DNA of 6,166 bases from positions 1-6,166 of the forward strand of contig NZJU01000023.1 in NCBI GenBank assembly GCA_002692325.1, read 5' to 3'. Shown one piece after another: positions 2,560 to 5,657 of the stretch (its first letter is position 1; each line of letters starts with the position of its first letter). The notes beneath the pieces were generated by a model. That model had not been told where the DNA came from and ran no database searches. It saw nothing but the letters and a program-made list of their open reading frames with translations. A program made the translations under genes and the position numbers. This DNA comes from Candidatus Pelagibacter sp. (GTDB taxonomy: Bacteria > Pseudomonadota > Alphaproteobacteria > Pelagibacterales > Pelagibacteraceae).

Positions 2560-3897
2560 ATGTTCAAAAAAGTTTTAATTGCAAATAGAGGTGAGATCGC
2601 TGTAAGAATCATAAGAGCATGTAAAGAATGGGGTATAGAAACTGTTGCTGTTCATTCAGATGTTGATTCTGAGTCCATGCATGTAAGATTAGCTGATGAG
2701 AGTGTTTGCATTGGCTCTCATCAACCACAAAATAGTTATCTTAATATATCCGCAATAATGTCAGCTGTAGATTTGACTGGAGCAGAGGCAATACATCCAG
2801 GTTATGGATTCTTGTCTGAAAATTCGAAATTTGCTGAAGTAGTTAATAAACATGGAATAAAATTTATTGGGCCAAGCCCAGAAATAATTAATAAAATGGG
2901 TGACAAAATTGAAGCAAAAAAAATTGCTAAAAAATATGGTTTACCCATAATTGAGGGCTCTGAAGGTAGTGTAAGCTCAATTTCAGAGGCTAAATCAATA
3001 AGTAAAGAAATTGGTTATCCTGTGCTTATTAAAGCTGCAGGTGGTGGCGGTGGTAAAGGAATGAAAATCGTTGAAAAAGAGTATGATTTAGAAAAATTAT
3101 ATATTCTCGCTAAAAATGAAGCAAAAAAATACTTTGGTAAAGATGAATTGTACATCGAAAAATATTTTAAAAACCCAAGGCACATAGAGGTTCAAATAAT
3201 GTCCGGAAAAAATAGAACCGTACATATTGGTGAAAGAGACTGCTCAGTTCAAAGACGACACCAAAAATTAATTGAAGAAACGCCTAGCCCAGTATTAACA
3301 GATGAGCAAAGAAAAAGCTTATTAGAAAAAACTGTTAAAATGGTAGAACAAATAGGTTACGAGGGAGCAGGCACTGTTGAATTTATCTATGAAGATGGAA
3401 AATTTTATTTTCTTGAAATGAATACAAGGGTGCAAGTCGAGCATCCTGTTACTGAGGTACAAACTGGAATAGACATAGTAAAAGAGCAAATCTGGGTAGC
3501 TTTTTCTGGAGAAACTGCATTAAAACAAATTGATATTACCCCTAGAGGGCATTCAATAGAGTGCAGGATTAATGCTGAAGATCCATCATTAAACTTTCAA
3601 CCAAGTCCTGGCGTTATCAAAGTGTGTCATCAGCCCTCTGGTTTTAGAACAAGAGTTGATGGATCTATTTTTCAAGGTTGTAAAATAACGCCATATTACG
3701 ATAGTTTAATTGCAAAAGTGATATGCAAAGGCAGGAATAGGACCGAAGCAATTCAAAGAACTCTTAGATCATTGGATGAATTTGTTTTAGAGGGTGTTAC
3801 TACTACAATAGACTTGCATAAAAAAATACTTAAACATGAAAAGTTTATAAATTCTACTTTTGATACAAATTGGTTAGAAAAGGAAAAGTTTTTCTAA
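2560..3897 (+). CDS. accC: Acetyl-CoA carboxylase, biotin carboxylase subunit
   Basis: AccC is an ATP-grasp enzyme that carboxylates the biotin on AccB using bicarbonate and ATP. The 445-residue product matches the usual size of about 450. Domains in order are a pre-ATP-grasp N-terminus (KVLIANRGEIAVRIIRAC), the ATP-grasp core and a C-terminal biotin carboxylase domain. Residues corresponding to E. coli AccC are present: Lys116, Lys158, the glycine loop 161-167, His208, Cys228 in ERDCSVQRRHQK, Lys236, Glu274, Glu286-Met-Asn288-Thr-Arg290 and Arg336. It starts on the base after the accB stop and ends the operon. The 3' end overlaps the convergent DUF2155 gene by 4 bases. In many alphaproteobacteria aat would follow; here it does not. 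Confidence 0.98.
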   Translation: MFKKVLIANRGEIAVRIIRACKEWGIETVAVHSDVDSESMHVRLADESVCIGSHQPQNSYLNISAIMSAVDLTGAEAIHPGYGFLSENSKFAEVVNKHGIKFIGPSPEIINKMGDKIEAKKIAKKYGLPIIEGSEGSVSSISEAKSISKEIGYPVLIKAAGGGGGKGMKIVEKEYDLEKLYILAKNEAKKYFGKDELYIEKYFKNPRHIEVQIMSGKNRTVHIGERDCSVQRRHQKLIEETPSPVLTDEQRKSLLEKTVKMVEQIGYEGAGTVEFIYEDGKFYFLEMNTRVQVEHPVTEVQTGIDIVKEQIWVAFSGETALKQIDITPRGHSIECRINAEDPSLNFQPSPGVIKVCHQPSGFRTRVDGSIFQGCKITPYYDSLIAKVICKGRNRTEAIQRTLRSLDEFVLEGVTTTIDLHKKILKHEKFINSTFDTNWLEKEKFF

Positions 3898-4370
3898 GTA
3901 TTAGTACAGCTTATCAGCCAAACATCATAAATAGCGTGATCTATTGAAGTATTGATAGAGTTAGATGAAAAAGTCCAACCGTTGAAAATGAAAACCTTTT
4001 CATTTTCACTTTCTTTTCTATCTTTTATTTGTAAATAAGCAACATCTTCTGTTTCAAAATTTTCTTTTATTACTTTGCCGCATTTAAGAGGTTTTATTTC
4101 TAGTAGTCCATAATTTTTTTTTTCTCCAATCTTGATCACAAATTCACTAGTTTTTGCTGTGATCTTGTCTAACCCAATTATTTTAACCCCAGAGTATTCT
4201 TTGTTGTCTTCTAAGGACTTTATTTCATTCATAAGATTTCTACTTTTTTTTCTTACTTTTTCATTTTCTTGAGGTTGAACTTCCTCATAGCTTGGTTTAA
4301 TTTGATCTACATTAATTAAAGGGGTTATACTAATATTATTTTCAGAATATAAATTTGACTTTAAAAACAA
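3894..4370 (-). CDS. DUF2155 family protein, probably exported; start displaced by a T11 tract
   Basis: The C-terminal ~100 residues match the DUF2155 family of alphaproteobacteria, whose molecular function is unknown: VKIIGLDKITAKTSEF (62-77), GLLEIKPLKCGK (88-99), FNGWTFSS (129-136) and HAIYDVWLISC (145-155). Cys97 and Cys155 could form a disulfide, which fits a periplasmic site. Residues 20-60 are charged and low in complexity. As written, the frame can begin only at a TTG (4370), because an in-frame stop lies at 4386-4388, and it has only a remnant hydrophobic start. An ATG at 4431 in another frame supplies a proper signal peptide if one T of the T11 tract is skipped, which would give 178 residues. 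The gene follows the NDUFA12 gene, as in relatives. The family call is firm; the true start is uncertain. Confidence 0.82.
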   Translation of the reverse strand: MFLKSNLYSENNISITPLINVDQIKPSYEEVQPQENEKVRKKSRNLMNEIKSLEDNKEYSGVKIIGLDKITAKTSEFVIKIGEKKNYGLLEIKPLKCGKVIKENFETEDVAYLQIKDRKESENEKVFIFNGWTFSSNSINTSIDHAIYDVWLISCTNT

Positions 4371-4431
4371 AAAAAAAAAGCAAGATTAAATAACTATTTT
4401 TTCCACTCTTTATATTTTTTAAAATTTTCAT
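4369..4431 (-). other. Out-of-frame signal peptide leader of the DUF2155 gene, ending in a T11 tract
   Basis: ATG at 4431-4429 opens a frame that reads a basic segment, MKILKNIKSGK, then N-S, then the hydrophobic run YLILLFF before the homopolymer. In the given sequence (T11 on the minus strand, 4379-4369) it continues as V-F-K-V-K-F-I-F and stops at 4344-4342 after 29 residues. If the tract were T10 it would run on as LFLKSNLYSEN in the DUF2155 frame, giving a standard n-region, h-region and a plausible cleavage near Y-S/E. The leader overlaps the last 38 bases of the NDUFA12 gene. A tract of 10 or 13 T is in frame; the 11 seen is not. Confidence 0.7.
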
Positions 4432-4744
4432 TTTTATCTATTCTATTTGGTTTATAAGCATTATCAGTTCCAGTTAAATTTTCTAAATGTTCTTTTTGCC
4501 AAAAATAAGTTTTTTTTTGTTCAGTTGGGGGTTTGTCAACGGTATGGTGGATCCACATAAACCATTCAGATGTAATTTTAGATGCTTCAACATTTCCTGA
4601 ATAAACAACCCATCTTTCATCTTTCTTATTCCTGTAATATTTATTTCCAAAGTGGTCTTTTCCGACTAATTGACCGGTAAAAATAGTTTTAAAAAAAGTG
4701 CCTAAAGTTTGCTTATTCCACCAGGTAAAAATTTGATTGATCAT
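4394..4744 (-). CDS. NADH:ubiquinone oxidoreductase NDUFA12 (B17.2)-like accessory subunit
   Basis: This is a homologue of the complex I accessory subunit NDUFA12/B17.2, which sits on the peripheral arm at the membrane interface and is shared by alphaproteobacteria and mitochondria. The 116-residue protein shows the family blocks LGTFFKTIFTGQLVGKDHFG (14-33), YYRNK, RWVVYSG (44-50), then WFMWIHHTVDKPP (61-73) and YFWQKEHLENLTGT. It has no signal peptide or membrane segment, as expected of a matrix or cytoplasm-facing subunit. The start is ATG at 4744, which gives a typical N-terminus with a WWNK segment. It is transcribed away from the NrdJ-like gene, and its last codons overlap the probable leader of the DUF2155 gene. 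The main nuo operon is not in this window. Confidence 0.93.
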   Translation of the reverse strand: MINQIFTWWNKQTLGTFFKTIFTGQLVGKDHFGNKYYRNKKDERWVVYSGNVEASKITSEWFMWIHHTVDKPPTEQKKTYFWQKEHLENLTGTDNAYKPNRIDKNENFKKYKEWKK

Positions 4745-4818: not shown

Positions 4819-5646
4819 ATGAAAAAATTTATTGTTGAAACATATTATACCTGCACATTTAAAACCATCCATGAACTTGATGATGTAAACGAACAGGAGT
4901 TATCTAAAATAGATAGTAGAAATGACGGAAAAGTTGAAGTTATTGAGGTAAAATTAAATAATAGGAAAACTAAAAAAACAGGTGAGGATAAGAGCGCGAG
5001 ACAGGAAAAAAATGAAGCTAAAAAGAGTGTCAATGTTAATGAAAATGAATTTTTAAAAAATAGCAAAAAACTGCTTACAAAAACTAATGAGCACGCAAGT
5101 AAGTTGAAAAACCAAAGTGATCAAAGATTTAAAATGCCTGACAGGAGAAAGGGATATATTCAAAAAGCATCTATAGGAGAACACAAGATTTATTTACATA
5201 CTGGCGAATACAATGACGGTAGAATTGGAGAAATTTTTATAGATACCAATAAAGAAGGTGAATTAGTTAAAGCTTTAATGAATAATTTTGCAATAGCCAT
5301 CTCTCTGGGTCTTCAATACGGTGTTCCCCTTGATGAATATGTAGATGCTTTCATTGATACAAAATTTGAGCCATCTGGAAAAGTCGATGGCAATGATAGA
5401 ATACTAAGCGCAACGTCAATACTCGATTACGTATTTAGGGAACTTGCTATATCCTATCTGGGAAAAGAAACTTTAGCTCATACACCAACAATAGCAAAAG
5501 CCTCTGATCACCAAAGTTTTGAACAAGATGACAAATTTTTAAAAGTTGTAAAAGATATTACTTCAAAAGGGTTTGTAAGAAGTAATTATGAGGAAAAATT
5601 AGTTGATCTCAGTGACATTAGGATTAACCTCAAATCAAAAAATTAA
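4819..5646 (+). CDS. Stand-alone protein with the C-terminal domain of class II ribonucleotide reductase (NrdJ-like)
   Basis: Residues about 103-220 closely resemble the C-terminal region of alphaproteobacterial vitamin B12-dependent ribonucleotide reductase: the linker [12 protein letters not shown], then [56 protein letters not shown] and [17 protein letters not shown]. The catalytic barrel, with its radical-site and active-site cysteines, is absent. The only cysteine in the whole protein is Cys12, so it also lacks the C-terminal redox pair and cannot be a reductase by itself. Residues 1-50 (ETYYTCTF, then [20 protein letters not shown]) look ordered and may be a small separate domain; 51-100 is a charged Lys/Glu/Asn-rich linker; 221-275 is unassigned. 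It may be a regulatory or nucleotide-binding relative, comparable in architecture to the split NrdJb of Pseudomonas. The gene converges on aspS with a 4-base overlap. Confidence 0.75.
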
Positions 5647-5657
5647 TTTTTTTTTTT
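5637..5657. other. A6-TTAA-T11 stop junction between the NrdJ-like gene and aspS
   Basis: Both convergent genes stop in the central TTAA (5643-5646). The flanks make a perfect A/T palindrome, AAAAAATTAATTTTTT (5637-5652), followed by more T up to 5657. The T run resembles the U-tract of a terminator for the plus-strand gene, but no GC-containing stem precedes it. A weak bidirectional termination role is possible but unsupported. Confidence 0.3.

Follow-up and report, generated by a model that had tools for sequence, protein, structure and literature searches.

What has become of the start of the DUF2155 gene in this stretch of DNA, and does the damage belong to the cell or to the record? The window, by which we mean the whole stretch of 6,166 nucleotides analysed here, carries part of an RNase E/G gene, thiG, thiS, aroQ, accB, accC, the DUF2155 gene, NDUFA12, a TSCPD-domain gene and part of aspS, as identified from open reading frames and Pfam matches. 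The DUF2155 body (PF09923) occupies positions 3894..4370 of the minus strand as 158 codons, counted from a TTG at 4370, plus a stop. Its score lies above the curated Pfam cut-off (E = 8.1e-21, 74.4 bits versus 27, profile positions 3-89 of 89) and places it in the family. The body frame becomes open at 4385 (SCFFFLFLKSNLYSEN...), and the TTG at 4370 is its first listed start; its first ATG-coded Met is internal (NLMNEIK). Upstream on the same strand, an ATG at 4431 opens a short frame (4342..4431) that reads MKILKNIKSGKNSYLILLFFFVFKVKFIF and then ends at a stop codon whose last base is 4342. These 29 residues consist of a basic n-region and the first half of a signal-peptide hydrophobic region, followed by out-of-frame residues.

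Leader and body part company at a homopolymer, T11 on the minus strand and A11 on the plus strand (4369..4379). When run lengths from 7 to 14 were tried, both halves shared one frame only at 7, 10 and 13; at length 11 the leader stops after 29 residues, and at length 12 after 23. Joined in one frame, leader and body give a protein of 178 residues. The earlier note had placed the leader ORF, the T11 run and the stop correctly, and its length for the joined protein is the one that we compute. The broken register is present in the record, and the DUF2155 body is free of any other lesion and thus bears no sign of decay. The window DUF2155 is a broken copy of a normal gene; its membership by body domain stands, and the N-terminal export leader, out of frame in the window record and usually in frame among relatives, is not part of the Pfam definition.

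That the leader belongs to the gene follows from comparison with homologues. A protein search with the body only returned 4108 matches at E 1e-5 or better, and among the 120 matches listed is P0001, a public protein of 177 residues, 99% identical over the body and representing a cluster of 4 sequences. Residues 1-20 of P0001 are those of the leader ORF, and from residue 21 onwards it matches the window's body frame at every position apart from the absence of one Ser, which accounts for its length of 177 rather than 178. The view that such a leader is improbable by chance is borne out by this match. P0002 to P0007, the next among the matches listed, are 69-73% identical over the body and likewise begin with a basic and then a hydrophobic segment. 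P0008 (119 residues; longest contig 1.08 Mb), which is close to P0005, is devoid of the leader and most of the linker; judged from the protein sequence alone, its shortness may be a start-call or frame problem.

The closest genome loci to the window come from uncultured Pelagibacteraceae, and 140 of the 169 genomes in the closest genome's genus have a DUF2155 match, genome completeness not being stated. We read one locus per matching genome, 140 unique relatives in all after the duplicate L199 was dropped. Hydrophobic leader and whole body lie in one open frame in 137 of them: 135 were recognized by script (a landmark immediately after the leader and correctly spaced from the matched body, plus an in-frame hydrophobic stretch with a suitably placed Met), and L156 and L160, which fall outside the landmark pattern, were found in frame by eye. 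Two more, L197 and L198, keep one frame from the leader through the neighbouring portion of the body and are broken further down. Only L196 has no leader; this locus, at the end of a contig, is a fusion of TSCPD and DUF2155 coding sequence. Leader and adjacent body are therefore in frame in P0001 and 139/140 relatives, which supports the earlier proposal that a signal-peptide leader and a DUF2155 body are split at the T11 run.

The TSCPD gene invites a separate remark. In L196 (G159) and in L040 on the same contig, TSCPD-domain coding continues without a change of frame into the C-terminal portion of DUF2155, with neither NDUFA12 nor the leader between them, which looks like an inversion or an amplification chimera at the contig end. 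In the window, unlike in this fusion, the TSCPD gene and DUF2155 lie on opposite strands. The window's TSCPD-domain protein (PF12637, 275 residues, 4819-5646) is encoded by a separate gene between NDUFA12 and aspS and has a match in 41/41 SAR11 loci checked; the TSCPD domain is found in the C-terminal part of class II ribonucleotide reductases.

The record as written would also permit another reading, namely that translation starts at TTG 4370 and yields a cytosolic DUF2155 protein of 158 residues, the upstream leader being a coincidence or a remnant. As the record stands, no start precedes TTG 4370 in the open body frame, but this codon is built from the last two T's of the run and the next G. 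Relatives speak against this reading through the leader that is in frame in P0001 and nearly all loci, and so do 16 of 17 more distant alphaproteobacterial loci, which by eye have a hydrophobic leader upstream in the body frame; the remaining one is cut by a contig end. A search among the relatives for leaderless homologues beginning near the TTG, the case that would have counted against a split gene, was negative. In addition, two Cys residues (positions 116 and 174 of P0001) are invariant in 46 aligned homologues, as would suit export. We regard a start at the TTG as the least probable of the accounts considered here.

These alignments show the leader to be a true and conserved component of the DUF2155 gene. 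Its best 11-residue hydropathy is 2.71 in P0001, against a range of 1.96-3.66 and a median of 2.72 in 135 relatives, and on the strength of hydropathy and homology it would have the n-, h- and c-region organisation of a putative Sec-type signal peptide. A candidate signal-peptidase site (...LYS|EN..., 4341..4346, minus strand) aligns with the A/S|E/D column of the relatives, which makes cleavage at LYS|EN likely. The start codon has shifted as well. At 4411..4413 on the minus strand, where most relatives have the ATG of an MKLG.. type start, the window has an ATA codon. This usual family position (4413-4411) is 6 codons downstream of 4431; both the window and P0001 have Ile there and begin 6 codons (18 nt) upstream, in the window within NDUFA12. 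Ile also occupies this position in at least six relatives (L060, L066, L085, L117, L169 and L187), and where its codon was read in five relatives, it was ATA in three and ATC in two. The NDUFA12 gene (4394..4744, minus strand; ORF and Pfam) overlaps the window's leader ORF at its 3′ end by 38 nt, that is, by one of the usual family overlaps (17 or 20 nt) plus 18 nt. Among the 128 relatives in which the pattern M-x(1-3)-G was found, the start overlaps the NDUFA12 end by 17 nt in 82 and by 20 nt in 40; the six others show 23 (two), -205, 113, 224 and 230, and in at least the negative case (L194) the pattern was misplaced. DUF2155 genes of Pelagibacterales (PF09923; for example P0001 and locus L001/L059) share with the window the body domain, the N-terminal leader and the NDUFA12 overlap, and with P0001 the window has the start 6 codons upstream in common; the window differs in the loss of register between leader and body at T11.

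The length of the T run among relatives bears on whether the odd register could be a functional device. The longest leader T run in the 135 relatives varies from T2 to T13, and every one of the 135 has its leader in frame. T runs of at least 9 occur in 33 relatives, of at least 10 in 20 and of at least 11 in 12, all of them in frame, and the lengths of the 33 fall into all three classes modulo 3 (16, 9 and 8). None of the relatives read has an out-of-frame leader, and no run kept at an out-of-frame length, as expected of a slippage site, was found in the 135 measured. Given this range and the in-frame state of every run of T10 or more, the run appears to be a side effect of writing a hydrophobic segment with F and L codons in AT-rich DNA, with selection presumably keeping the frame; it does not resemble a conserved slippage site.

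Expression through slippage was one option raised in the earlier note: T11 would be real and the protein still made, by RNA polymerase slippage to an in-frame length or by ribosomal +1 slippage, as phase variation or slippage-tolerated expression. The frame is open at T7, T10 and T13, and selection against A/T runs, taken as a sign of slippage, is reported to be evident from nine bases in many bacteria (PMC1088944), although the same source suggests that some AT-rich bacteria suppress slippage. Frameshifted genes of Blochmannia and Buchnera are described in PMC3017870, citing earlier work, as rescued with ~30% full-length transcripts, and homopolymers account for more than half of the single-base transcription deletions in Buchnera, at a rate that climbs with run length (PMC5574713). 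The poly(A)/poly(T) frameshifts of PMC3017870 resemble that of the window in their AT-rich setting, in arising from one indel within a run of at least 9 bases, and in the otherwise intact body. They differ in that the window's frameshift is not common to any relative read, its shift is in the disfavoured direction, the organism is, judged by its relatives, not an endosymbiont and the window is known from DNA alone. Rescue at T11 requires the loss of one base or the gain of two; a gain of one leads to a stop after 23 residues, and ribosomal -1 slippage therefore fails. In the Buchnera data, insertions lie in homopolymers in 151/157 cases, compared with 16/57 for deletions (elsewhere in the paper, 15, 21%); homopolymer transcription indels there are mostly single insertions, and no restored frame was found (PMC5574713). 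The run itself is not conserved: it varies from T2 to T13, with all 135 measured relatives in frame. Slippage rescue is thus possible but disfavoured, nothing in the comparative data asks for it, and we judge it improbable. The option found no support, with no out-of-frame leader among relatives and a needed change that runs against the commonest slippage direction, and the endosymbiont precedent invoked for it holds as an analogy only, since the host is, by its relatives, of SAR11 type and not an endosymbiont. A stronger form, in which the T run in the signal-peptide core varies between cells as an on/off or dosage switch for DUF2155 export, and out-of-frame cells make a little protein via RNA polymerase slippage, we consider very unlikely. 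If it were true, the DUF2155 T run would be a contingency locus in a streamlined free-living bacterium.

Frame breaks at homopolymers in the sequence records themselves offer a different kind of comparison. Of the nine A/T runs in the window that reach 9 bases or more, the T11 at 4369-4379 alone breaks a frame. The other eight, which include the thiS T10 (1614-1623), the aspS T11 (5647-5657) and a second long DUF2155 run absent from the earlier note (A10 on the coding strand, 4114..4123, minus strand), lie in open frames; four are inside Pfam-matched parts (RNase E/G 152-160, thiS, the DUF2155 body and NDUFA12), and the other four, of which three lie in the tail of RNase E/G and the last at the extreme end of aspS, are beyond the reach of a homology check. 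A G7 run in accB (2379-2385), also in an open frame, stands out amid the AT-rich window. The eight open runs indicate that the window is not obviously noisy, which counts against a sequencing or assembly error. Furthermore, no frame switch appeared in 356 gene-by-locus comparisons covering nine window genes at 41 SAR11 loci (202 kb); these took in 116 A/T runs of at least 9 bases (16 had 10 or 11) and were blind to breaks in a short leader. Homopolymer frame breaks are rare in those 41-locus SAR11 assemblies.

Within the DUF2155 gene, two of the 140 relatives do show a frame switch at or around a homopolymer. In L197 (G152), the reading frame changes around an A11 (coding strand) located in the linker that joins leader and domain; the window shows a comparable break at a different run. 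L198 (G019), a stretch of 881 bases, combines a DUF2155 break at an A8 (coding strand) with an NDUFA12 break at an A9, and this double break suggests homopolymer sequencing errors in that genome. Homopolymer consensus errors are reported to cause false frameshifts, worse in A/T-rich DNA on 454, with Illumina assemblies less affected (PMC3277595). The false frameshifts in metagenome assemblies described there share with the window a one-base length change, a long A/T run and a conserved gene; the window differs in that its other long runs leave open frames.

Between an error in the record and a lesion in the cell, the second is the account that we rank second, as a tentative but serious one: a real, private and recent length mutation, by which the strain acquired T11 through replication slippage, with loss or strong reduction of the secreted protein. 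Replication slippage is reported to be frequent at long A/T runs (PMC1088944, PMC3017870), the window's other long runs are open, and in Thioclava DUF2155 was scored non-essential, such that its loss may be tolerated there (PMC9226611). Conversely, 0/20 relatives with a leader run of T10 or more are out of frame, the gene is widely kept in the genus (the 140/169 genomes noted above), and the lack of a second lesion in the body allows only a very recent event.

On the basis of these comparisons, we favour a consensus or mixed-population indel as the cause of the T11 break, to which we give about an even chance as a matter of judgement, not of computation. This choice rests on P0001, which equals leader plus body minus one Ser, on the leader being in frame with the body across relatives, on the body without lesion and on the 20/135 leaders of T10 or more that are all in frame; the homopolymer breaks in the records of L197 and L198 and the precedent in PMC3277595 add to it. 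It is weakened by the open state of the other runs, by the lack of any switch in the 356 comparisons and by the lower error-proneness reported for Illumina (PMC3277595). The locus would then hold an ordinary DUF2155 gene of a SAR11-type alphaproteobacterium, whose small, exported and probably periplasmic product carries a Sec-type signal peptide. In the record, the T run within the hydrophobic region of that signal peptide is one base out of register and cuts the signal peptide off from the body; the odd length would most likely stem from a miscall at the 11-base homopolymer or from a population of mixed lengths being collapsed there. The cell would make the full-length protein from an in-frame gene, and a programmed frameshift would be unneeded.

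As for function, a structure model gives a beta-rich DUF2155 body, and judged by its leader the product looks exported. Export also fits a bioinformatic comparison that counts a DUF2155 protein of Liberibacter as an outer membrane protein (PMC9548881). In Thioclava, DUF2155 stands in an operon with NDUFA12 and mlaD (PMC9226611), and from the mlaD neighbourhood one might guess at a link to envelope lipid transport.

The finding is mainly a matter of annotation: a gene caller would likely give a signal-less protein of 158 residues instead of an exported one of 178. It also exposes a general trap, in that AT-rich signal-peptide cores use F and L codons and hence frequently contain T runs of 9 or more (33/135 relatives), and one-base errors or mutations in such runs strip the export signal and leave the body intact. 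Should T11 be real and tolerated, the locus would allow slippage-tolerated expression to be tested cleanly in the streamlined genome of a free-living organism.
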